IMG/VR virus record: IMGVR_UViG_3300013286_000029
Span: 1 to 36,707 of that record
From: a virus
Direction: 5' to 3' (one strand)
Length of the DNA stretch: 36,707 bases
This document shows positions 1,454-18,810 of this stretch, piece after piece (positions within the stretch are counted from its first letter, which is position 1; each line of letters opens with the position of its first letter). The notes under the pieces were generated by a model that saw nothing but the letters and a program-made list of their open reading frames with translations, made no database searches and was not told the origin of the DNA. A program made the position numbers and the translations under genes.

Positions 1454-2034
1454 CCCTGCCGGTTTCCACGAAAAATGCAATGTTGGGCGGGCAAGCGTTC
1501 ACGCTCGCCAGCCTGCACACGGCATTCCCAGGCTCTACGGGGGCCAGCGAAGTGACAGGGGGTGCCCCTGCCTATGCGCAGAAAGCCATCACCATCAATG
1601 CTGCATCCGGTGGCGTTCGTTCTCTCAATGCGTCAGTGACGTTTGACGTTCCGGCCTGCACCGTTAAGTGGGTAGGCTTTTGGAATGCAGCGGTGTTTGT
1701 TGGCTGCGCCCCGAATGGCGGTGCAACGCCCAAGAATTTCATGAGCATTGCCTCCACCGATACCGTCTATTCGGCGGCGCATGGGTGGAGCGACACGCAA
1801 AAGATCGTGTTCTTCAACGGCACGCCTCCGGGTGGTCTGACTGAAGGCACCACCTACTTTGTGCGCGATGCGGCAACGGACTCGTTCAAGGTCGCAGCAA
1901 CGGCTGGCGGCGCCGCGATTGACCTGACCACGGCCAGCAGCTTCGGGTGCGTGGTTGCGGCCATCACGGAAGACGTGTACGCAGCGCAAGGCACGCACAC
2001 GCTTTCGACGGCGAGCATCGTCATACCGGACTGA
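1450..2034 (+). CDS. Virion-associated protein with a small beta domain (FCCH-like)
   Basis: The start overlaps the stop of the tail hub gene (ATGA), so the two are translationally coupled. The 194-residue product is rich in Ala, Thr and Gly. Its middle part (about residues 97-155) has the pattern D-TVYSAAHGWSDTQKIVFF...GG-TEGTTYFVRDA--DSFKVAAT, a short beta module that recurs in phage tail proteins and is often labelled a ubiquitin-activating E1 FCCH-like domain; that label is structural and does not imply ubiquitin chemistry. It occupies the P22 gene 26/14 interval, but I see no trimeric needle heptads. The role in the tail tip is inference. Confidence 0.6.
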   Translation: MTLPVSTKNAMLGGQAFTLASLHTAFPGSTGASEVTGGAPAYAQKAITINAASGGVRSLNASVTFDVPACTVKWVGFWNAAVFVGCAPNGGATPKNFMSIASTDTVYSAAHGWSDTQKIVFFNGTPPGGLTEGTTYFVRDAATDSFKVAATAGGAAIDLTTASSFGCVVAAITEDVYAAQGTHTLSTASIVIPD

Positions 2035-2035
2035 C

Positions 2036-3157
2036 ATGCCGAACGCACTGGACAGCATCGGGCCGACGCCACGCAATGCCCTGCTGGGCACGCTGGCCGA
2101 CTACCTGAGCAAAGCCAATGCTTTCGCCCAACAGCCAGACCGCACGATGCCGATGGGCAAGAGCAATCCTGTTCTTGCGCTACTGGCTAACGGTGTGGGC
2201 CTGCCAGATGTTGCCGCGACTGCTGACCGACTGAGCTACGGCCTGCCGGTGACACAAGGGCAAGGGCAGGCGATGCAGATGCTGCCTGAGACGCGCAATG
2301 CCCTGATGGCGGTTTTGCCGTTCGTTGCGAAGAACCCGGTTGCTGCGGGTAAGGCTGCGTTGGGGCTTGCTGGTGGCGGTGCTGATGCGGGTATGGCGGC
2401 AGAGCGCGCCATGTTCATCGGTCCTAACGCGAAAACATGGGACGCAGCGGCGGCGGCTAAGGCGGCGGCGATGGATGCTGCCGGTAGCGATGCCCGCGCC
2501 GTCTGGAAAGAGGCCGGCACGTTCAAGGGTGCGGATGGGATGTGGCGGCAGGAGATTGACGATAGCGGTTCAATGTTTCGCGGTTTTGGGGCGACCGACT
2601 CGCAGCCTGTTGGGCAAGCCATCCACCACCCCGGCGCTATAAAGGCATACCCGGAAATGGCGGACATGCGTGCGCAATCTGTGCCCGGTACTGGCGGCTC
2701 GTTTTCCGGTGAGATGGGTTACGCGCCGTCTAGCCCAACAGTAAATCTTGGGTGGGACAACGGGCAAAACACGCACAGCACCGCGCTTCATGAATTGCAG
2801 CATGCAGTACAGGGGCGCGAAGGCTGGGCGCTTGGCGGCAGTCCAAAGAGCATGGCTGACTTGCTATCACAACGCGCGCAACTGAAAGCCAAGTTTGATG
2901 CAGCGGTTGAACAATCCCTAACAGCGATCGACCCGATTGCAAAGGCCAACGCGCAGCAAGAACGGCAGTTCTACGGGCTGGCTCTTGGCAAATTGCCGAG
3001 GGTGGACAGCGCGCAAGACGCTTACCGAAAACTTGCAGGCGAAGCCGAGGCCCGCGCCACGCAAGCCCGTATGAACATGAATCAGCAGCAGCGCCGCGCT
3101 ACGTTCCCGTTCGACTCCTACGATGTCCCGGTTAACGAATTGATCGTCCGCAAGTAA
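2036..3157 (+). CDS. Predicted zinc metallopeptidase-domain virion protein (polyvalent-protein type)
   Basis: 373 residues. An HEXXH zinc motif (HELQH, residues 252-256) is followed downstream by GEAEAR, a plausible third metal ligand, and the tail (FPFDSYDVPVNELIVR) matches a common C-terminal signature of phage polyvalent-protein peptidase domains. The N-terminal half is Ala/Gly-rich and amphipathic and ends in a hydrophobic GKAALGLAGGG stretch. I chose the ATG at 2036, two bases after the previous stop; longer starts would run backward into the upstream gene. Such domains are found in proteins packaged and ejected with phage DNA. A second HEXXH protein of similar size and layout is carried in the cassette array at 16311-17474. 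Substrate is unknown. Confidence 0.7.
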   Translation: MPNALDSIGPTPRNALLGTLADYLSKANAFAQQPDRTMPMGKSNPVLALLANGVGLPDVAATADRLSYGLPVTQGQGQAMQMLPETRNALMAVLPFVAKNPVAAGKAALGLAGGGADAGMAAERAMFIGPNAKTWDAAAAAKAAAMDAAGSDARAVWKEAGTFKGADGMWRQEIDDSGSMFRGFGATDSQPVGQAIHHPGAIKAYPEMADMRAQSVPGTGGSFSGEMGYAPSSPTVNLGWDNGQNTHSTALHELQHAVQGREGWALGGSPKSMADLLSQRAQLKAKFDAAVEQSLTAIDPIAKANAQQERQFYGLALGKLPRVDSAQDAYRKLAGEAEARATQARMNMNQQQRRATFPFDSYDVPVNELIVRK

Positions 3158-3654
3158 TGGCTACCACCGGAGCCGTGCTGTACATCAAACCAACGATGTA
3201 CGGCACGACAAGCGCTGCCCGCTCGTCTGGCGCTGTGGTCTATGTGTCACCGCGCTTAGTCAGCGGCCTCTACAGCGCAATAACCGTAACTGCGTCCAGC
3301 GACTTGAGCAACAAACGGCCGAACCTTCCGCCAGCCCGTTCGCCGGTTGGCTGGGTGACGATAGACGGGCAGCGCCTGCCTGTCGAGTTTGACGCGCAGT
3401 TCTGGAACTTCTTACGCTTCCAGCACGAAATCAAGCTAGGCGGCATGAACGGCGCAACGCTGCCAGATGTGGTTACCACCGTCGAGACAACGCAGGCATC
3501 AGCGGCTACGACTTCGCAAGCTGTTCTGGCAGTCGCACAGCAAACGCAAGCCAACGCCGAAGCCTTGAGCGTGACAAAGCAAGTCGTAAAGCTAAACGGC
3601 CTGACAGGCGCAGATCAGATTCCCAATGTGGATTTGAGCGCGAATCTTCCTTGA
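3157..3654 (+). CDS. Conserved hypothetical tail-module protein
   Basis: 165 residues, with the start overlapping the previous stop (TAATG). Residues 1-50 are small-residue-rich with repeated GAVVYVSP-like pieces. The middle carries WVTIDGQRLPVEFDAQFWNF, a conserved-looking globular core. The C-terminal third (TTQASAATTSQAVLAVAQQT and on) is an Ala/Gln/Thr helix that could form a coiled coil. It sits between the metallopeptidase and the gp7-like ejection protein, in the interval where P22 keeps gp26 and gp14, so a minor virion or assembly role is likely. I do not recognise the family. Confidence 0.55.
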   Translation: MATTGAVLYIKPTMYGTTSAARSSGAVVYVSPRLVSGLYSAITVTASSDLSNKRPNLPPARSPVGWVTIDGQRLPVEFDAQFWNFLRFQHEIKLGGMNGATLPDVVTTVETTQASAATTSQAVLAVAQQTQANAEALSVTKQVVKLNGLTGADQIPNVDLSANLP

Positions 3655-3661
3655 GGCAAGC

Positions 3662-5083
3662 ATGGCAAACCCACTGATGAACAACTCTGACCCTTGGGCA
3701 TGGAACCAAGCGGCGCAGCAGCAAGACCCCGGGCTTTACGGGTGGAACAAGTACGGCATTGATGCCTCTTCGCTGTCGTTTGGTCCAACGCAAGAACTGT
3801 TGCGGAATGCCGGTCTGTGGCGGCCGGAGTTCGATCAGTACCTGCAGGATAAAGCACAGGCGATGGGCAACGGCGATGCTGACGGCGTGATGCCTCAGGC
3901 GCCAGACCTGTCGAGCTTGGCGGGCTATCAGTACGGAGATGCGCGCAGCCAAGGCTATGACCGGCTACAGGGATTGTTCGGGCCGGATGGCGCGATGGTC
4001 GGGAATGGTCTTGTCGGTCAGACGCAGGGCTTCAAGGGCCGCGACTACATGGAAGGCATCGGCACAGCCCTTGCGCCTATCGCTATCGGCGCGGGCCTCG
4101 GGGCGGCAGGCATTGGCCCCGGCATCGGCGGATTGTTCGGTGCTGGCGAGGCCGCAGCGGGTAGCGGCGCATTCCTCGGCGAAGGCATAGCTTCAGGCAT
4201 CCCCGCATGGGATGCCGCTGGTGGAGCGGCGTTGGGCGGCGGCGAGACGGCAGCACTTGGTGCGGGTCAAGTCGGCGCAATGGGCGGCGGTTTTGGCGCT
4301 CCTGGCGCAGAAGGGTTGGGCGGCATTACTGGCGGCGGTGGGTTGACGGGCTCCGGTGCGTCGCTGTATGCACCTGGCGGATTTGCTGGCGGTACGGGGT
4401 CGGCATTGTCTGGCGCCTCGTCTGGCGGCGGCGGGGGGTTACTTGGCGGACTCGGTAGTCTGTTTTCAGGCGGGTCTGGTGGCGGCATGTCACTTGGCAA
4501 CTGGTTGCAACTGGGGCAGGGCGCGCTGGGTCTGTATGGCAACCAGCGTGCCATAGGCGCAGCTCAGGACGCCACCAATCAAGCGAACCAGACGGCGCAG
4601 TCGATCTACAACCAGCAGCGGCAAGACAATATGCCGCTCATGCAAACCCGCGATTCAGCGCTGGGCAAGATCAATGCGCTGTTGGCAAACCCGTCAAGCG
4701 TGACGCAAGAACCGGGCTATCAATTCGGGCTTGAACAGGGCCAAAAGCAGCTTGACAACAACGCAGCGGCGACAGGCGCCTACTACAGCGGCGGACAACA
4801 GAAAGCAGCGGCCCGGTACAACCAAGATTACGCCAGCACGAAGTTCGATCAATCGCTCAACCGGCTGACAAACTTGGCGGGCATGGGGCAAGTCGGCGCA
4901 AACAACAACGGCAATGCCCTTGCGAGCTACGGTCAGCAAACCAGCCAGAACGCTCTGAACATGGGCAATTTCCGAGGTTCCGGGTATGCCGGAAGCGCTA
5001 ACGGCATTGGCAACGCGCTGGGCAGCGTGGCGAATGACTGGCAGACACAGCAGTACCTGCAGCAACTCGGAAGGAAGCCGTGA
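3662..5083 (+). CDS. DNA ejection (injection) protein, P22 gp7 position
   Basis: 473 residues preceded by a GAGG ribosome site. Residues about 130-280 form an extreme Gly/Ala-rich, membrane-like region (IAIGAGLGAAGIGPGIGGLF and similar), and the last 170 residues are Gln/Asn-rich helices containing the pattern EPGYQFGLEQGQKQLDNNAA...YYSGGQQKAAARYNQDYAS, which is typical of the DNA transfer protein family in podoviruses (P22 gp7-like). Ejection proteins travel in the capsid and form a conduit across the cell envelope. It is the first of three consecutive genes joined by stop/start overlaps, the same trio arrangement as gp7-gp20-gp16 of P22. It is longer than P22 gp7 (about 230). Confidence 0.75.
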   Translation: MANPLMNNSDPWAWNQAAQQQDPGLYGWNKYGIDASSLSFGPTQELLRNAGLWRPEFDQYLQDKAQAMGNGDADGVMPQAPDLSSLAGYQYGDARSQGYDRLQGLFGPDGAMVGNGLVGQTQGFKGRDYMEGIGTALAPIAIGAGLGAAGIGPGIGGLFGAGEAAAGSGAFLGEGIASGIPAWDAAGGAALGGGETAALGAGQVGAMGGGFGAPGAEGLGGITGGGGLTGSGASLYAPGGFAGGTGSALSGASSGGGGGLLGGLGSLFSGGSGGGMSLGNWLQLGQGALGLYGNQRAIGAAQDATNQANQTAQSIYNQQRQDNMPLMQTRDSALGKINALLANPSSVTQEPGYQFGLEQGQKQLDNNAAATGAYYSGGQQKAAARYNQDYASTKFDQSLNRLTNLAGMGQVGANNNGNALASYGQQTSQNALNMGNFRGSGYAGSANGIGNALGSVANDWQTQQYLQQLGRKP

Positions 5084-12425: not shown

Positions 12426-12634
12426 TGGTGGCGCCATCAAGGCCAATGCTACCGGAATTGCTACGGTAGCATTTTCGTAGCAGCAAAACCTTCCCATTGA
12501 ACTACGGCGGGGCCGGGCACCGCTCAATCCGCGTTTACCCGTAGATTTGCTACTTCACGCCTAGCGTACTCTCCCGTTGAATCATTGGCCGTCACAAGAC
12601 GGCTGCATCGGGTTTGCTACGGGAGTGCTACGGC
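12426..12634. other. Candidate attP region with repeated TGCTAC motifs upstream of the integrase
   Basis: This non-coding gap holds seven copies of TGCTAC or its complement in 190 bases: forward at 12446, 12459, 12548, 12615 and 12626, reverse at 12467 and 12477. Three are extended to TTGCTAC. Such dense repeats next to an integrase gene are what arm-type integrase sites around attP look like. A second small inverted repeat (GCCGTC 12588-12593, GACGGC 12598-12603) lies between them. The core crossover sequence cannot be identified without a host attB. Confidence 0.5.
12445..12473 (+). terminator. Strong inverted repeat ending the lysis operon
   Basis: AATGCTACCG (12445-12454) is perfectly complementary to CGGTAGCATT (12464-12473) with a 9-base loop, followed only by TTCG. 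It may terminate late transcription, but its arms contain the TGCTAC motif repeated through the attP candidate, so it may instead be an integrase- or excisionase-binding palindrome. Confidence 0.5.
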
Positions 12635-13714
12635 GTGAGTTCCATCATACCTGTCGGGGACAAGTGGCGCGCACAGGTCAGGCGCAAGGGCTACAAAGCG
12701 CAGACCAAGACGTTTGCGCTGAAGCGAGATGCCGAGGCGTGGGCGCGCAGGCTGGAGGCCGGGATCGACAAGGCAGGGCCGGTCGCCAAGACGGACGATA
12801 TGACGGTTTCTGACCTGATCGACAGCTACCGCGACATGCGGATGGACCTTGGCAGGCCGGTCAGCCCGACGACAAATACCCACTACATGCTCAACCATCT
12901 GGCCGAAGACCTGGGGCCTGAACTGGTGTGCGACCTGACTCCTCAGCGGCTGGCTAGATGGGCCAAGGAGCGCAGGGAACAAGGCGCAGGCGGTTACACC
13001 GTCAACATGGAACTGTCAGCCCTTGGCACGGCTATCCGGCACACGGCCAGTTTCCTCAACATCGTCATGCCCGACGTGGTGGGCGCGGCTCGCCCGCTGC
13101 TGCACTACGGGCAGCTAATCACTGGCGGCAACAAGCGCACACGGCGCCCGACTGAAGACGAGCTAACCCGCCTGCTGGTCTGGCTGCAAACCCGGAACCC
13201 GATCATTGCAGACGCGGTTCGAGTCGCGGCCATCACGGGCATGCGGCGGGCAGAACTGGCGCGCATCTTGTGGGCAGACATCGACGAAGGCAAGAAGGCC
13301 GTTCTGGTGCGTCAGCGCAAGCACCCCAGGCGGATAGAGGCGCGGGATGAGTTGGTGCCGCTGCTGGGCGATTCATGGAGCATCGTGCAGCGCCAGGCCA
13401 GGACAGATCAGCGCATCTTTCCGGTATCGCGCGAGGCGTTGACGGACGCGGTGACGGCTGGCACCAAGGCGCTAGACATCCCGAATTTGCATCTTCACGA
13501 TATGCGCCGCGAGGCTACTTCGGCAATGCGAGATTTAGGGCTCGACGCGAGCGCGAGGAAGGCGGTGACGGGGCATCGCTCGGACGCGGTTCACGAGATT
13601 TACGTTGCGGTTGATCTTCAGCAACTACATGCGCAGTTCGACGCTGCTCAAGGTAAGCAGCAACGTCCGCCGCGTCAGCGTAAAGCGCGCGGCCATCCAC
13701 CCGCATCCAAGTGA
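12635..13714 (+). CDS. int: Phage tyrosine-type site-specific integrase
   Basis: 359 residues. The N-terminal part (SSIIPVGDKWRAQVRRKGYK) is an arm-binding-like beta domain, followed by a SAM-like core-binding domain. Catalytic residues are visible: Arg in TGMRRAEL (about 204-205), HxxR in LHDMRRE (His288, Arg291), His314 in GHRS and nucleophile Tyr323 in IYVAVD. I chose the GTG at 12635 with GGGAG nine bases upstream; the longer TTG start would add residues encoded by the TGCTAC repeats. It integrates and, with an excisionase, excises the prophage. It lacks the extra helix region that marks integron integrases, so it is not IntI. The last 200 bases overlap a convergent gene. Confidence 0.92.
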   Translation: MSSIIPVGDKWRAQVRRKGYKAQTKTFALKRDAEAWARRLEAGIDKAGPVAKTDDMTVSDLIDSYRDMRMDLGRPVSPTTNTHYMLNHLAEDLGPELVCDLTPQRLARWAKERREQGAGGYTVNMELSALGTAIRHTASFLNIVMPDVVGAARPLLHYGQLITGGNKRTRRPTEDELTRLLVWLQTRNPIIADAVRVAAITGMRRAELARILWADIDEGKKAVLVRQRKHPRRIEARDELVPLLGDSWSIVQRQARTDQRIFPVSREALTDAVTAGTKALDIPNLHLHDMRREATSAMRDLGLDASARKAVTGHRSDAVHEIYVAVDLQQLHAQFDAAQGKQQRPPRQRKARGHPPASK

Positions 13715-13851: not shown

Positions 13852-14166
13852 TCAGTGAAAATTCCTCGCAGCCAGCAGCCTCGGCACTTGCCCAGCAATC
13901 CATCGCAGCAACTCCTTTGACGCGGCGCAGTGAAGAACTTCGCCCGTCTGCGCATCGACGCAGCGCCAGGAAACGTAGCCCATGCGCGGTTCGATCAGCA
14001 CGTCACGCCAGCCCAGCGCGGACAGCATCATGGGGAACGGCTGGCGCACGTCATCAGGCCCGCGATCAGGGGTGCCGTCCGCACGCTCCTGATCCGCGCG
14101 AAGTTCGGCGGCGTGCCATCGGGCTCTGGCTGCGTTGACGTGGCGTTGTGATTTGCGTCGTTGCAT
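13852..14166 (-). CDS. Hypothetical phage protein
   Basis: 104 residues from the ATG at 14166. The N-terminal 40 residues are very Arg-rich and helical (MQRRKSQRHVNAARARWHAA). The C-terminal half looks globular, with GYVSWRCVDAQTGEVLHC and KELLRWIAGQVPRLL. It lies ten bases upstream of the HTH gene in the same operon and just downstream of the collapsed cassette site, so it marks the return to phage backbone. I do not recognise a family. Confidence 0.5.
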   Translation of the reverse strand: MQRRKSQRHVNAARARWHAAELRADQERADGTPDRGPDDVRQPFPMMLSALGWRDVLIEPRMGYVSWRCVDAQTGEVLHCAASKELLRWIAGQVPRLLAARNFH

Positions 14167-14187
14167 GGCAAAAAGTCAGTGGATGTC

Positions 14188-14205
14188 ACTCAACATACGT
14201 TAGGC
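14188..14205 (-). other. Collapsed attC-like site at the distal end of the array
   Basis: Read on the minus strand, GCCTAAC (14205-14199) contains the stop codon of the preceding cassette gene, as is common in attC. Only four bases later comes GTTGAGT (14194-14188), which fits GTTRRRY. The usual 40-100 base stem between the boxes is missing, so it looks like an attC that lost its centre. It marks the array/backbone boundary. The second box could be chance. Confidence 0.5.
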
Positions 14206-14481
14206 AGCACCAATATGCGCGTCCGCCATCTCGTCGAAGTTCTCAGGCGTGGCGTTCATCATTGCGGCCTCTGTGTCAGGCCACCCGCCCTGTTGCCGCA
14301 ACCAGCGCCACCTGTCTGCGTCCTTGCGCAGTTGGGCCAGCACGTCGCCATTAATCTGCACTGTGTTGCTGAACGTGCAGCCCTGAAACCCCGGCTGCGG
14401 CATTGGGGCGGCTGCGGTCAGTTGGGCCACGTAGCCCACGGTCATCTTGTCCACTTCAGTCCTTTCGTTGTCATCACACAT
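14200..14481 (-). CDS. Cassette gene: hypothetical protein
   Basis: 93 residues from the ATG at 14481, only 13 bases after the attC box that begins this cassette; the TAA stop lies inside the GCCTAAC box at the other end. It contains the segment VLAQLRKDADRWRWLRQQGG, a motif seen in many small phage proteins of unknown function, and a C-terminal acidic ATPENFDEMADAHI. No promoter is visible in the cassette, so it should be read from the upstream operon. Function unknown; the LRKDADRWRWLR type suggests phage ancestry. Confidence 0.65.
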   Translation of the reverse strand: MCDDNERTEVDKMTVGYVAQLTAAAPMPQPGFQGCTFSNTVQINGDVLAQLRKDADRWRWLRQQGGWPDTEAAMMNATPENFDEMADAHIGAA

Positions 14482-14493
14482 GGGTCGGGTGCT

Positions 14494-14560
14494 GCCTAAC
14501 CCCGTATTCGAGCCGATAGCCCCGGAGTACCGGGTCTACGGCTCAATACGAACGTTAGGT
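14494..14560 (-). other. attC site 1 (methyltransferase cassette)
   Basis: 67 bases. Minus-strand boxes are ACCTAAC (14560-14554) and GTTAGGC (14500-14494). The inner arms pair as CGTATTCGAGCCG (plus strand, from 14503) against CGGCTCAATACG, leaving one extra C unpaired, the strand-discriminating feature of attC. The methyltransferase stop codon lies one base from the first box. ACCTAAC is the exact complement of GTTAGGT at the start of this cassette (15256-15250). Confidence 0.9.
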
Positions 14561-14561
14561 T

Positions 14562-15218
14562 TCACAACAGCCCTTCCTGCACGCATTCGCGCGGAGGTTC
14601 GGGCGGCAGTAGCGTGCCCTGGGCCTGGGCGCGGCTGATGCGCTCGCAGGCGATGTCAAAATACTTGCGCTCTCGCTCGATGCCCGTGAACGCCTTGCCA
14701 AGCTGGGTGCAGGCAACGCCGGTTGTGCCGCTGCCCATAAACGGGTCCAGCACGCGGGATGCCTTCACTGCCGACATGAGTTCAACCGTAAGCGATACGG
14801 GCTTTTGTGTCGGGTGGTTCACAAACTCATCGGCGCAGGCGGCAAAGTTCGGCATCACTGCTGCATGACGATAGACCCTTGCTTTAGTGCCGCTGCCGAA
14901 AGCGAAGATACGCTCGTAGTGGTGGCCCGCGACGTTCCCGGTTTCTGAGCGTGGGTGAATCGGGACCGACTTGTGCCAAATGTGAATTGCAGAGTAGTGC
15001 GCTGCCGGTGGATTGCCGTACCACGGCCAGAACACATAACCAACGAACGGGCCAAGCATGTCCAGGCACGCATTGACGGCGTCTGTCGGGAAAAGGTCTT
15101 CCCGCCCAAAGTACGGCGGGTCTGTCAGCACCATGTCGCCGGGCGCCAGCAGTGGCAGCACCTCGCGGCAATCCCCGTGCCACAGTTCCGCATTCCCGAT
15201 CACTACTTTCTCAGCCAT
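14562..15218 (-). CDS. Cassette gene: orphan DNA N6/N4 methyltransferase (beta-type motif order)
   Basis: 218 residues. The catalytic motif DPPY (residues 33-36) comes before the AdoMet-binding motif DPFMGSGTTG (158-167), the order of beta-class amino-methyltransferases, with a target-recognition region between. It transfers methyl groups from S-adenosylmethionine to adenine or cytosine N4 in a specific DNA sequence. The ATG at 15218 is chosen because AAGGA sits five bases upstream; the ATG at 15224 would have no spacing. No restriction endonuclease accompanies it, so protecting phage DNA from host restriction is a likely role. The gene is the whole content of its cassette. Confidence 0.9.
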   Translation of the reverse strand: MAEKVVIGNAELWHGDCREVLPLLAPGDMVLTDPPYFGREDLFPTDAVNACLDMLGPFVGYVFWPWYGNPPAAHYSAIHIWHKSVPIHPRSETGNVAGHHYERIFAFGSGTKARVYRHAAVMPNFAACADEFVNHPTQKPVSLTVELMSAVKASRVLDPFMGSGTTGVACTQLGKAFTGIERERKYFDIACERISRAQAQGTLLPPEPPRECVQEGLL

Positions 15219-15249
15219 CTTCATCCTTGGTCAGTGCGCCACCAGTGAA

Positions 15250-15337
15250 ACCTAACCCCGCCACTCAAGCGGACGCCTGCCAGCGTCCTGTCGTTTGCCG
15301 TCAGTCGCACGGGCGCCGCTTACTGGCACCGTTAGGC
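15250..15337 (-). other. attC site 2
   Basis: 88 bases. Minus-strand boxes are GCCTAAC (15337-15331) and GTTAGGT (15256-15250). The inner arms CCACTCAAGCGG and CCGCTTACTGG pair with an unpaired base and a mismatch. A longer variable central stem follows. Its first box complements the box that starts its cassette (GTTAGGC, 15668-15662). Confidence 0.88.
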
Positions 15338-15430
15338 CCGTCTTTCCGGGCTGTCAGCGCTCGCTGCGCAGTAGGTGTGCCACCGCTACGTGGCGCCGCT
15401 TAGGCATCGGCGGCTTGCCCCTCAAGGCAT

Positions 15431-15634
15431 CTAAGGCCAATCCGTCTTCGGGCCATACGCCCAGCGCCGCAAACGTGCGGTCGTGCGTTGCAGCCGGGCT
15501 GGCGGTGCCACGGTCGTGCAGGTGTGCAGCGCTTCGGCTGCGGGCCGCCACAGGGCCACGGTAGCGCGCGGCAGTAGACCTGCCAGCCATGCAAGGCATG
15601 CTGCTAGGCGGTCAAGGTGGCGGGCAAACATCAT
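15431..15634 (-). CDS. Cassette ORF of uncertain frame
   Basis: An excellent ribosome site (AGGAG) precedes the ATG at 15634, 28 bases inside the cassette, and opens a 67-residue frame with a hydrophobic stretch (LAACLAWLAGLLPRATVALW) that ends early at 15431. An overlapping frame on the same strand, 15599 down to 15354, is open to within 16 bases of the attC and is where a cassette gene would normally end. Both have GC-rich third positions. Either one frame is spurious or a frameshift split a single gene of about 90 residues. No family recognised. Confidence 0.4.
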   Translation of the reverse strand: MMFARHLDRLAACLAWLAGLLPRATVALWRPAAEALHTCTTVAPPARLQRTTARLRRWAYGPKTDWP

Positions 15635-15661
15635 TTCCTCTCCTACAGTTGTGGCGAACGG

Positions 15662-15718
15662 GCCTAACACGCAATTCAAGCCGAGCCGAGTACGGCCGGC
15701 TTAATTGCAACGTTGGGC
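15662..15718 (-). other. attC site 3 (compact, textbook form)
   Basis: 57 bases. Minus-strand boxes are GCCCAAC (15718-15712) and GTTAGGC (15668-15662). The arms GCAATTCAAGCCG (15671-15683) and CGGCTTAATTGC (15697-15708) pair fully except one extrahelical C. The centre is a short GC-rich hairpin. The RHH gene stop lies one base from the first box. GCCCAAC is the complement of GTTGGGC at the start of its cassette. Confidence 0.93.
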
Positions 15719-15719
15719 G

Positions 15720-15902
15720 TCAGCGGCCCGCGTTGCATCGTTTCTCGATCCACGCCTGTAGCGTCAAGCCGGCAGCAGTGGCACGCATCAACCAAGCGGC
15801 CTTGGTGTCGGGGTGCACGCGCATTTCGACGCGCGCGGTTTTCCCCTCGCCATCGGCAAGGGGCTTGCGCCCCGGCTTCGCTTTCTCCGGGGCTGCGCTC
15901 AT
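15720..15902 (-). CDS. Cassette gene: ribbon-helix-helix DNA-binding protein
   Basis: 60 residues. After a basic, AT-hook-like leader (KPGRKPLADG) comes a compact RHH fold: strand KTARVEMRV, helix HPDTKAAWLMRATAAG, helix TLQAWIEKRCN. RHH dimers bind short repeats and commonly repress their own promoter. It overlaps the upstream gene by ATGA, and the promoter of the pair has two 16-base direct repeats that suit such autoregulation. The arrangement recalls toxin-antitoxin cassettes, but the partner does not look like a known toxin. Its stop abuts attC site 3. Confidence 0.75.
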   Translation of the reverse strand: MSAAPEKAKPGRKPLADGEGKTARVEMRVHPDTKAAWLMRATAAGLTLQAWIEKRCNAGR

Positions 15903-16105
15903 TCGATGTCCAGACCGATGCGCTTGGCGTCGTCCTGGCTGATCGTGATGCCGGCCGGGTGCTCATAGCGGGCCGACACGTCAGAGCCAATGGGGTACAC
16001 GCTGCAATCCATGCGGGTGGCGGCGCTGCCGTCGGCGTGCAGAACATCGACATTGCCGTCTTCGTTGATGCGGCCGAAAAATTCACCGTGTTGGTCTTGG
16101 TACAT
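15899..16105 (-). CDS. Cassette gene: small acidic protein paired with the RHH protein
   Basis: 68 residues from the ATG at 16105 with GGAG at proper spacing. It begins MYQDQHGEFFGRINEDGNVD and ends ITISQDDAKRIGLDIE; Gly/Asp-rich beta strands suggest a compact beta fold. It is the first gene of a two-gene cassette, coupled by a 4-base overlap to the RHH gene, and is served by its own promoter. I do not recognise a toxin or enzyme motif. The operon logic (protein of unknown action followed by an RHH regulator) is the only clue. Confidence 0.65.
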   Translation of the reverse strand: MYQDQHGEFFGRINEDGNVDVLHADGSAATRMDCSVYPIGSDVSARYEHPAGITISQDDAKRIGLDIE

Positions 16106-16149
16106 GCTGCTCTCCGGTCGGTTGCTGCGCGATCTGCTGCAGTGGTATT

Positions 16150-16178
16150 AATGTACGGCAGGGAATGCGCCAAGTAAA
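16150..16178 (-). promoter_or_regulatory. Promoter inside the RHH cassette
   Basis: On the minus strand a -35 box TTTACT (16178-16173) and a -10 box TACATT (16155-16150) are separated by exactly 17 bases, about 45 bases upstream of the ATG at 16105. It is the only cassette with a convincing internal promoter, so this pair could be expressed in a lysogen when the early operon is silent. Confidence 0.6.
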
Positions 16179-16201
16179 GCATATTTGTACGGCAGGCAAT
16201 G
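16152..16201. repeat. Two direct repeats overlapping the cassette promoter (candidate operators)
   Basis: TGTACGGCAGGGAATG (16152-16167) and TGTACGGCAGGCAATG (16186-16201) differ at one position and start 34 bases apart, close to three helical turns. One copy covers the -10 box and the other lies just upstream of the -35 box. They are good candidate sites for the RHH protein encoded by the cassette. Confidence 0.65.
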
Positions 16202-16228
16202 TAAAGTTCGCGCGCTTCGGACACAGAC

Positions 16229-16288
16229 GCCCAACCCCCGCATCAACTCGGACCGTCTGACGGCGGCCGGTTATGCGGAACGTTAGGG
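16229..16288 (-). other. attC site 4 (metallopeptidase cassette)
   Basis: 60 bases. Minus-strand boxes are CCCTAAC (16288-16282) and GTTGGGC (16235-16229). The arms CCGCATCAACTCGG and CCGGTTATGCGG pair with two unpaired bases (C and T). The first box departs from RYYYAAC at one position but is the exact complement of GTTAGGG that starts its own cassette at 17521-17515, so the deviation was inherited as a unit. Confidence 0.88.
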
Positions 16289-16310
16289 CGCATCAATACA
16301 CCCATTCGAA

Positions 16311-17474
16311 CTATCGCAGCGCATTCGAGCCGTCGTCGTTGGCAAACAGGCCAGCACCAAGCAGCCCAGTGCCAGCAGCGGGCGCAAGCGAGTTGAATTG
16401 AATCGTCTTGTTCAAATTAGGGTTCGCGTTCACGTACTCACGAATCCGCGCGGCTGTGTTCGGCGCAACCGTCTTGAGATAGTTCGGGTCGCGCATGTAG
16501 GCACGCACCGCCTCGGCCATCAGTTCGGCGTCAGTTTGGTTCGCTGCGTAGCCCTGGCCCTTCGGCGTCATACCGCGCCCGGGCTTGAACCACCCTGCAG
16601 TGTTTAGGTCTTCATAGACCTTGCCTAGTTCTTTGCTTAGCCCCTTGGTTGGAATCCGCGAGCCTCCCGGCCCAAGAACTCCGAACACAAGATCATCAAT
16701 GCCGTGCCCGAGTTCATGCTCAAACACGCGGCCCGCTTGTTCGCCTTGAAGCGACTGGTCTGTAAAAATCCGCCGGTCAGGCCCGCCAACGTAGCGGCCT
16801 GCATCGCCCTTCAGGTCTGGGCCGGTTCTGGCGGCGGCGTATCGCTGAATACCAAGCGCGTCGGCAAGCCGGTTCGCATCGCCTCTTGCGATGCCTTCGT
16901 CCACGCCGCCTCCCACTCTGCGTCCTGCGACGTATTGCGCGGTGATAGGACGCCCGTCGATGTCAAACGCAAGTCGGCTTCCGTCCGGTCCTGCAGCGCC
17001 TTGTGGGTAGTCGGCATTGAATGGCCTCTGTGCGGTAGGTTTGGGGTCAAAAATATTCGGCGTCTTGCTTGCGCGAACATCGGAAAGCGCAGATGCGATT
17101 TTACTATTTGCAGGGGTTTCAGCCAAGCGCATCAACGCGTTTACAGGCTTGCTTACGTCGGGCTTTACGCCAGCCAGAAGGCCAAGAAGACCGCCCGTGA
17201 AATTGCCCGCAGTGTCTGCCGCAGAACCTGGCGTATCGGCCAGCAAACCGCCGCGCCGCATGCGCTCTGCAATCCACTCGCTGCCGCCAACAGGTGGCCC
17301 CAACAGGTCAGGCGGCTTGCCCAGCAAACCGGTCTTGTGCCCAGCGTATCCGCCGCCCGCAATCAGCAGGTTCAGCAGTGCATTGCCCATGTCTGCCGGG
17401 GCGCCAAGCCCGTCAGCCCAAAAGCCTCGGCTTGTGCCTTGCCCGAATTGCTGTAGTGCGTTCGTTGGCCCCAT
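16311..17474 (-). CDS. Cassette gene: HEXXH metallopeptidase-domain protein of virion type
   Basis: 387 residues from the ATG at 17474 (GGAG seven bases upstream; a TTG at 17498 is less likely). The motif VFEHELGHGIDDLV holds an HEXXH zinc site at about 253-257, and DAELMAEAVRAYMRDPNYLKT supplies a likely third ligand. The N-terminal half is Gly/Ala/Leu-rich with GFWADGLGAPADMGNALLNL and AADTAGNFTGGLLGLLAG, the texture of proteins packaged in phage heads. Its layout parallels the 2036-3157 gene of this phage. It is long for a cassette gene. Likely an ejected or polyvalent protein; substrate unknown. Confidence 0.75.
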   Translation of the reverse strand: MGPTNALQQFGQGTSRGFWADGLGAPADMGNALLNLLIAGGGYAGHKTGLLGKPPDLLGPPVGGSEWIAERMRRGGLLADTPGSAADTAGNFTGGLLGLLAGVKPDVSKPVNALMRLAETPANSKIASALSDVRASKTPNIFDPKPTAQRPFNADYPQGAAGPDGSRLAFDIDGRPITAQYVAGRRVGGGVDEGIARGDANRLADALGIQRYAAARTGPDLKGDAGRYVGGPDRRIFTDQSLQGEQAGRVFEHELGHGIDDLVFGVLGPGGSRIPTKGLSKELGKVYEDLNTAGWFKPGRGMTPKGQGYAANQTDAELMAEAVRAYMRDPNYLKTVAPNTAARIREYVNANPNLNKTIQFNSLAPAAGTGLLGAGLFANDDGSNALR

Positions 17475-17514
17475 AATCTGCTCCAGAATGCCTGTCAAGT
17501 TATCGTCGAATGCG

Positions 17515-17640
17515 CCCTAACCATTCGCTCAAGCGGAGAGCCAACGGCATGCCACAAAGCCCGCCAGCCGGGTTGGCACATTATCCGTCCGTCGGGCTTT
17601 GTGTCATACCGTCGTCTCCCGCTTAGCTCAAACGTTAGGC
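17515..17640 (-). other. attC site 5 (long form) at the backbone/array junction
   Basis: 126 bases. Minus-strand boxes are GCCTAAC (17640-17634) and GTTAGGG (17521-17515). The outer arms GCTCAAGCGG-AGA and TCTCCCGCTTAGC pair with unpaired bases. The centre is a second, perfect stem CACAAAGCCCG/CGGGCTTTGTG. The stop codon of the upstream phage gene lies inside the site, just beyond its first box. Confidence 0.88.
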
Positions 17641-18116
17641 CCTTCAATCCCGCGAGCAATCTTGCTGGCGGCGTTCCGCGCGTTCACCGTCACGCCGTCA
17701 GCGTGCGTCTCGCCCCAGCGGCGGGCAATGGCGGCGCAGCGTGCGCGCTCGGCGGCCACAGCGGCATCCAGTTCCGCCTGCCCATACAGCGGGTCGTTCT
17801 TCCTGTTGCCGTCGGTGTCGGCTACCCAAACGTCAGTCCTTGGCGGCGGTGGCCCGAGCACAGCGCGCACCAGCCTGTCGCCCCGCTCGCGCAGAATCCG
17901 CAGGCTCTCGCCGCCATCTTCGGCCTCATCTTCAACTGATGCCAACACGCCGCAGGCCTCAGCGATCCAGCGTGCGAAAACCTCGCGCTCGCGCTGCTGC
18001 CGTTCAATCTCTGCCGCCGCACGCGCAAACAAGCCGGCGCTTTGTGCAGCTTGGTCGCCTTGCCACTTGCGTGCGGCTGCGGTCTGTAGCTCGGTAAGCA
18101 CGTTGCTGGGCGTCAT
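17628..18116 (-). CDS. Hypothetical early protein whose 3' end lies in an attC site
   Basis: 162 residues from the ATG at 18116, overlapping the ninB stop by ATGA, so it is coupled to the phage recombination operon. It is Ala/Arg/Glu-rich and largely helical, with QSAGLFARAAAEIERQQRER and ELDAAVAAERARCAAIARRW, a pattern frequent in phage early proteins of unknown role. The last codons (EGPNV) and the stop are written by the attC box GCCTAAC and the following bases. Either a cassette attC fused to a backbone gene, or this gene arrived as part of a cassette that lost its leading box. Confidence 0.65.
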   Translation of the reverse strand: MTPSNVLTELQTAAARKWQGDQAAQSAGLFARAAAEIERQQREREVFARWIAEACGVLASVEDEAEDGGESLRILRERGDRLVRAVLGPPPPRTDVWVADTDGNRKNDPLYGQAELDAAVAAERARCAAIARRWGETHADGVTVNARNAASKIARGIEGPNV

Positions 18117-18520
18117 GCTGCTTCATCCTCGTAAACAGTTACCCCACGCGCTGCGGCAGTGGCGTGCAGGAATTCGAGCCATTCGCTAAATCGCGCCTTG
18201 CTCATCTTGCTTGTGCGAAGGCCCAGCAAAACCATGCCGCCGTCCAGGCCCATTGCCACGCGCACGGTTTCGCGGCTGAATGCGGCGCTGAGAATGTCCT
18301 TCCATTCGCCCGCCGTCAGCTTGCACATAGCGCCATTCACGGGCCATTGCAGTTGCTGCGCAAACGCTTCCAAGATCGGCCACTGCGCGGAGTTCTGATC
18401 CAGGCTTCGCTTCGGCGGCTCGACTGTGACCCGCCAGCCTTCCGGCGCGTTTGCCACGGCTGCAACAGCACGGCGGCGGGCCAGGTCGTGCGCCATCACG
18501 TAAATCTGCTTGTCGCTCAT
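18113..18520 (-). CDS. ninB: NinB-like recombination mediator
   Basis: 135 residues. It shows the NinB (lambda Orf) signature: WRVTVEPPKRSLDQNSAQWP followed by WPVNGAMCKLTAGEWKDILSAAF and a C-terminal LRTSKMSKARFSEWLEFLHA. Lambda Orf helps load annealing or RecA-type proteins on SSB-coated DNA, substituting for RecFOR. It overlaps both neighbours by ATGA. The presence of an ERF annealing protein and a Ref-like nuclease in the same operon fits a phage recombination module. Confidence 0.88.
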   Translation of the reverse strand: MSDKQIYVMAHDLARRRAVAAVANAPEGWRVTVEPPKRSLDQNSAQWPILEAFAQQLQWPVNGAMCKLTAGEWKDILSAAFSRETVRVAMGLDGGMVLLGLRTSKMSKARFSEWLEFLHATAAARGVTVYEDEAA

Positions 18521-18810
18521 GCTTTGATTACTCCACGCTGCGCTAGGTCGGCCAGCGTCATCAGAATCGCCTTGTCCATTCGGCTGCGGCGCTCGTCGCG
18601 GTTCATGTTCTTGCCGCTGTCAATCTCGGCGTGGCATTCAACGCACAGGGCCGCTGTCCAGCAGTCATGCGCCTTGATGCCCATGCCTTTGCCTTCGTTG
18701 CGGTGTGCCGCTTGTGTTGCGCCTTCCCGGTAGCACAGAACGCACGGCAGCGAAGCCACGGCACGCAGCCACGTTTCGCTGCGGTAAGTGCGCTCTTTCA
18801 GGTAGTTCAT
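18517..18810 (-). CDS. Ref-like RecA-dependent nuclease (HNH-type zinc fold)
   Basis: 97 residues. CVLCYREGATQAAHRNEGKG followed by AHDCWTAALCVECHAEIDSG gives two CxxC/H pairs framing an AAHRNEGKGMG motif, the pattern of the Ref family (phage P1 Ref is a RecA-directed endonuclease) and related HNH-fold proteins. It probably nicks or cuts DNA during recombination. Coupled on both sides by 4-base overlaps in the ERF-NinB operon. Shorter than P1 Ref (about 186), so only the nuclease core is present. Confidence 0.8.
   Translation of the reverse strand: MNYLKERTYRSETWLRAVASLPCVLCYREGATQAAHRNEGKGMGIKAHDCWTAALCVECHAEIDSGKNMNRDERRSRMDKAILMTLADLAQRGVIKA

Follow-up and report, generated by a model that had tools for sequence, protein, structure and literature searches.

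A probable attI-anchored attC array with reversed cassette genes and no integron-integrase gene at the end of a phage early operon

We analyze a stretch of viral DNA of 36,707 nucleotides (IMG/VR record IMGVR_UViG_3300013286_000029, positions 1 to 36,707; hereafter, the window) in which a gene of 162 codons, ORF162, starts on the stop codon of ninB and ends inside an attC site. We read the region as an integron array that lacks an integrase gene, is anchored at an attI-like site and holds cassettes whose genes run in reverse, with the ORF162 junction being its distal and oldest end; judging from sequence comparison, we put the probability of this reading at roughly 0.78. Followed in attC polarity (+ strand), the array would run from the attI-like site (14179-14205) through five cassettes with (-)-strand genes to the attC at 17515-17640, the point at which the early operon of the phage (ninB, ORF162) would read into the array. 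Cassette gain or loss would take place at the attI end, through attI x attC recombination driven by the IntI of a Burkholderiales host acting in trans, and the reversed orientation would let the phage operon, which comes in from the opposite end, transcribe the genes. Somewhat less firmly, we consider it probable that several kinds of Burkholderiales-infecting phages keep such an integrase-less integron (attI plus the neighbouring gene g104) at the end of the early operon, borrow the host IntI, and draw on a phage-specific pool of reverse-gene cassettes expressed by the phage operon.

Layout and gene polarity of the array

With thresholds of at least 10 for the arm score and at least 13 for the core, five attC sites are found in 14494-17640. 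Shuffled windows scanned at the same thresholds yield roughly one per 36.7 kb, or none, so the cluster is not a product of chance. The sites have the RYYYAAC...GTTRRRY boxes, hairpin and strand asymmetry that define attC, with hairpin z-scores from -2.0 to -10.1, and five sites with no intI form what is termed a CALIN (at least two attC sites, no intI). A search of the window against Rfam gave no match.

Cassette 1 (14200-14554) holds one gene (14200-14481, -) and an attC of + polarity (14494-14560; hairpin z = -7.0). Cassette 2 (14555-15331) carries an N6/N4 DNA methyltransferase gene (14562-15224, -; PF01555, E = 1e-16) followed by its attC (15250-15337). A short ORF on the (-) strand, with an ambiguous strand call, and an attC at 15662-15718 make up cassette 3 (15332-15712), and two genes (15720-15902 and 15899-16105, both -) precede the attC with the weakest hairpin (16229-16288; z = -2.0) in cassette 4 (15713-16282). 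Cassette 5 (16283-17634) consists of a gene for a 395-residue protein (16311-17498, -) and the distal attC (17515-17640), which is + by the arm position weight matrix (PWM), has both core boxes and contains the ORF162 stop codon. This last site folds into an imperfect hairpin of -44 kcal/mol (z = -10), and none of 200 shuffles was equally stable.

The 395-residue protein is large for a cassette product and has a metalloprotease-like HELGH motif; it matched no Pfam or PHROG family, and a suspected paralogy with the window gene at 2030-3154 was not supported. Methyltransferase or methyltransferase-like genes recur in phage cassettes, at 14562-15224 in the window, at about 3480-4420 in a related phage locus, L212, and in a later L212 cassette (the L212 calls were made by eye from the sequence), a recurrence that would fit an anti-restriction role.

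As a reference for gene direction, we used 20 regions downstream of intI in Burkholderiales genomes. There, the attC arms read GCCTAACCCnnCGnTCAAGCGG...CGCTTAnCTCnAACGTTAGGC on the gene strand; in the window and related phages, the genes lie on one strand and this arm sequence on the other. Assessed by leave-one-out, an arm matrix orients 40 of 44 bacterial sites in the standard way; it reads all five window attCs as inverted. When cassette genes were assigned to a strand by a codon model (trained on window genes and applied to sites picked by our own scanner), not one of the 47 scorable cassettes in the window and about ten related phage arrays followed the convention that a gene runs in the direction of its attC (0 same, 47 opposite, 17 ambiguous), against 45 same, 4 opposite and 31 ambiguous in Burkholderiales chromosomal integrons. 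Calling strands by the longest ORF was tried and set aside in favour of the codon model, as it is misleading in GC-rich DNA (37 versus 13). Folding provides an independent test, since the matrix played no part in the choice of strand: the gene-sense strand is the stabler in 62 of 70 phage sites, and the antisense strand in 88 of 104 bacterial ones. For the attC at 17515-17640, the gene-sense strand reaches -44 kcal/mol versus -29.6 for the other. These sequence patterns show an inverted polarity of the phage cassettes, which places the start of the array at the opposite end from ORF162, beside the gene at 13852-14166.

The attI-like site and exchange beside it

That gene, g104 (13852-14166, -), has the place and direction of intI in an integron and adjoins the candidate attI (14179-14205, +), a degenerate copy with its G|TT at 14199/14200. 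It belongs to no Pfam or PHROG family, and its predicted model (pLDDT 78) has no fold match in the PDB. Homologues occur in several IMG/VR phages and on one betaproteobacterial contig from a metagenome-assembled genome (MAG), and the single hit among 399 host-order genomes is that same contig. This MAG contig (CAIKLM010000001.1) begins, at its position 1, inside the attI-like site that precedes g104; variation of the adjacent array in the population, breaking the assembly, would have this effect. Phage-type tyrosine integrases also lie near g104, at 12614-13714 in the window and 2038-3099 in locus L149, in opposite directions relative to g104, and a tRNA-gene-like sequence is found just past a g104-like gene in locus L055 (about 14715-14785).

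Wherever the last cassette gene is readable, an RYYYAAC-type box is followed by a conserved leader, GCCTAAC|GTGTTGTAGGCAACATCTGGAGACTTTGC; the gene varies from phage to phage and the RYYYAAC junction is constant. All ten readable sites carry the leader, with g104 as the neighbour in nine and a different gene in one (L057). Read in reverse, the element is GATGTTGCCTAMAACAC|GTTAGGC, which is similar to CTACTTTAC|GTTRRRY, the core of Burkholderiales attI. When a PWM trained solely on 20 bacterial attI sites was run on the eight other phage loci whose intact site was scanned, the terminal site came out on top in every one. The attI-like sites score 27-38, and everything else in 2.4 Mb scores at most 17.1. 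The window site scores 27.2 with the phage-attI PWM, in whose training set it was included, and is the sole match of at least 15 in the window. When the R box is excluded and sites are left out one at a time, the attI-like site ranks first in 7 of 10 loci, third in L147, ninth in L057 and 18th in the window, and the window copy reaches P = 0.03 with the bacterial PWM. Given this weak signal with the R box excluded, the window copy is identified mainly by position and homology, and, being degenerate, it may no longer work. An empty attI, in which an operon gene would be joined directly to GTGTTGTAGGCAACATC-g104, was not found in 2.4 Mb.

A comparison of three sister phages bears on where the array changes. 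L148 has a single cassette, in the order gene137-attC-cassette A-attI-g104. L212 and L213, whose records end within the array, short of g104, keep gene137 (its protein being 99% and 92% identical, respectively, to that of L148), the attC and cassette A, and the three are 90-97% identical up to GAGGGCCTAA|C. Beyond this point, L148 continues into attI and g104, and L212 and L213 into an attC and a methyltransferase-like cassette; the latter two then diverge where the following cassette ends, at ACGCCCAA|C. The differences fall exactly at RYYYAA|C, which locates the change on the attI side, with the side of the backbone gene being shared. The difference between L148 and L212/L213 could reflect excision and not insertion, and the sites involved are the same either way. 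Exchange at such exact boundaries lends indirect support to IntI-type recombination of the attCs.

The element before g104 might instead be a mere promoter or leader, and the end of the last cassette a relic of deletion. Its distance of about 35 bp from the start codon would suit this, as would the poor match of the window copy to attI. However, the RYYYAAC junction is kept although no two phages share a last gene, the matrix trained on bacterial attI sites puts the element first in eight loci, and the sister phages exchange sequence precisely at it, so we regard a promoter or leader as quite improbable and favour an attI-like anchor.

Other array-bearing phages show further variation. Two records have a short attC array immediately following ninB in addition to one that ends at g104: L031 (2045-6610 and 10583-10997) and IMGVR_UViG_3300009031_000015 (loci L054/L145 and L057). 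Small cassette genes are common to the arrays of different phages at 88-93% DNA identity (L003 6690-6850 with L054 6571-6738; L002 7050-7230 with L055 12760-12928). The distal end of L055 (6800-6850) is a truncated attC that retains a single arm and abuts a phage gene, which is another form of end erosion. The portal protein of the window was not found in 12 other array phages, in a search that had no positive control and in which some records are fragments; the array module is thus seemingly not confined to one phage lineage.

The ORF162 junction

ORF162 (17628-18116, -; 162 aa) follows ninB (18113-18520, -; PF05772, E = 2e-25; 42 relatives recovered), which closes the phage recombination operon. 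The sequence-only reading with which this work began had noted that the gene is coupled to ninB by ATGA, that its last codons and stop lie in an attC, and that no cassette-start box precedes it. All three observations hold: the ORF162 start codon sits in the ATGA at the NinB stop and overlaps it; its 3' end, GGG-CCT-AAC-GTT-TGA, runs into the attC at 17515-17640; and no GTTRRRY or RYYYAAC box is present on the gene strand in 17641-18560.

The two ends of the gene differ in what they match. Its last ~43 codons (17635-17762, -) correspond to the end of a complete cassette gene in G002 (locus L003), at about 98% DNA identity over about 127 nt or, at greater length, 95% over 145 nt; the shared block spans -17 to +128 nt around G|TT, where similarity ends abruptly. 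Searches with ORF162 returned real matches to the C terminus alone, all of them in attC arrays. Relatives without attC sites that encode the same C terminus, which would have spoken against the earlier reading, were sought and none was found: the C terminus adjoins attCs only and is absent from INPHARED, from PLSDB and from a GTDB scan that detects close relatives only. The module of about 42 residues carries four different N-termini (in ORF162, L003/G002, L047 and L002), which makes ORF162 a fusion. These matches show that the C terminus is cassette DNA. It would be the remnant of a truncated sixth cassette, the other part of which was lost on joining the ninB-coupled gene, probably within a shared 'AERxRCAA' segment.

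The N-terminal ~119 codons (17760-18116, -), which carry the ATGA coupling, have no relatives in IMG/VR, INPHARED or PLSDB, and no homologue of ORF162 was found at the same place in array-less relatives, which is what would mark a backbone gene. We favour an operon gene as the source of this part, in view of the exact coupling to ninB. It could also be cassette DNA itself, in which case ORF162 would be a cassette gene throughout, with its upstream attC lost and ninB brought against its start codon. The same 42-residue module does end complete cassettes in L047 and L003/G002, where the N-termini are different, and occurs in L002 as well, and the N terminus of ORF162 is found in no other phage. 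Yet no attC remnant lies upstream, the exact ATGA coupling is that of the next gene in many ninB phages, and simple erosion of a cassette boundary would produce a 4-nt overlap of this kind only by coincidence. On balance, we find an origin wholly within a cassette doubtful and prefer a fusion of an operon gene to a cassette end.

Both origins that the sequence-only reading had offered for the junction thus survive in part. It had proposed that a cassette attC became fused to a backbone gene, and a cassette-derived 3' end with its attC does appear to be joined to a gene of the ninB operon, but the 3' ~127 nt are of cassette and not of backbone origin. Its alternative, that the left boundary of a cassette was lost, agrees with the survival in ORF162 of only the 3' part of one.

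The further step of the first proposal, in which the other cassettes docked, by attC x attC recombination, at an attC fused illegitimately to the backbone gene, fares less well. ORF162 is indeed ATGA-coupled to ninB and ends in an attC, and an operon gene ends in the terminal site in L031, L056, L057 and L148 as well. In L057, it is ninB itself whose stop codon (TAA) falls in the terminal R box; this box, GTTACTC, is a poor one, which would suit a displaced half of the original attI. For the genes at the array ends of L031 (84 aa), L056 (149 aa) and L148 (137 aa), no useful array-less relatives were found that would give the native 3' end. However, attC polarity and fold asymmetry make the ORF162 site distal, the attI-like site lies opposite, the sister phages change at that opposite end, and the C terminus of ORF162 is cassette and not backbone DNA. 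We therefore consider docking at ORF162 very unlikely and retain the attI-like site as the point of entry. The suggestion that the junction records the founding of the array is reasonable in general, as the NinB of L057 illustrates, but in the window that record has been overwritten by the truncated cassette.

Possible integrase supply and comparison with known systems

No IntI was found above the TIGR02249 cut-off in 12 related phage records, some of which are fragments, and no intI stands next to the attI-like site, as it would in an integron. The only tyrosine recombinase found in the window (12614-13714) is the phage integrase. In the order to which the g104 MAG belongs, 96 of 250 genomes encode an IntI above the family cut-off. 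From metagenomic contigs, we infer the host and a supply of IntI in trans.

One could equally imagine that a block of host chromosomal cassettes was captured once, illegitimately, and now persists as an inert CALIN; the lack of intI in the window and its 12 relatives and the Burkholderiales type of the attC arms would be in keeping with this. Host cassettes, however, have their genes in the normal orientation (45 versus 4) and the phage cassettes never do (0 of 47), the C-terminal module of ORF162 is absent from the GTDB scan, and the exact-boundary differences between sister phages speak for ongoing recombination. A single inert capture is accordingly hard to credit, and an array that is still exchanging cassettes appears far better suited to the data. 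Phage attC clusters could previously be read as captured debris; the attI-like anchor, the uniform reverse polarity and the exact-boundary differences point to active exchange of phage genes on the host integrase. Methyltransferases and other accessory genes could be exchanged by phages in this way, a route that is open to testing, and polarity would tell the old end of such arrays from the new.

Clusters of attC sites without intI (CALINs) in phages, some with DNA methyltransferase cassettes, were reported by Qi et al. 2023 (PMC9892861), who found IntI1 to recombine phage attCs with attI1 in E. coli. Among their phages, MW202573 has reverse polarity when tested as here (in both of its 2 scorable cassettes), and the arms of TJE1 look conventional, unlike those of the window. 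Their text describes neither an attI-like anchor in the intI-less CALINs of virulent phages nor an inverted gene/attC polarity, and we found no description of either in our searches of the open-licence literature. The closest named phages, the P22-like podoviruses EBPR podovirus 1 and Rhodoferax phage P26218 (portal identity 49-52%), have no ninB gene and no attC-type array in their deposited annotation. The sedentary chromosomal integrons of Burkholderiales share their attC arm sequences with the phage arrays, and their attI core, CTACnnnACGTTRRRY, resembles the phage site; however, they have intI beside attI and genes in the attC direction, where the phages have g104 and reversed genes. Phage attC clusters are thus known, and an attI anchor without intI, together with reverse-gene cassettes, appears to be new.
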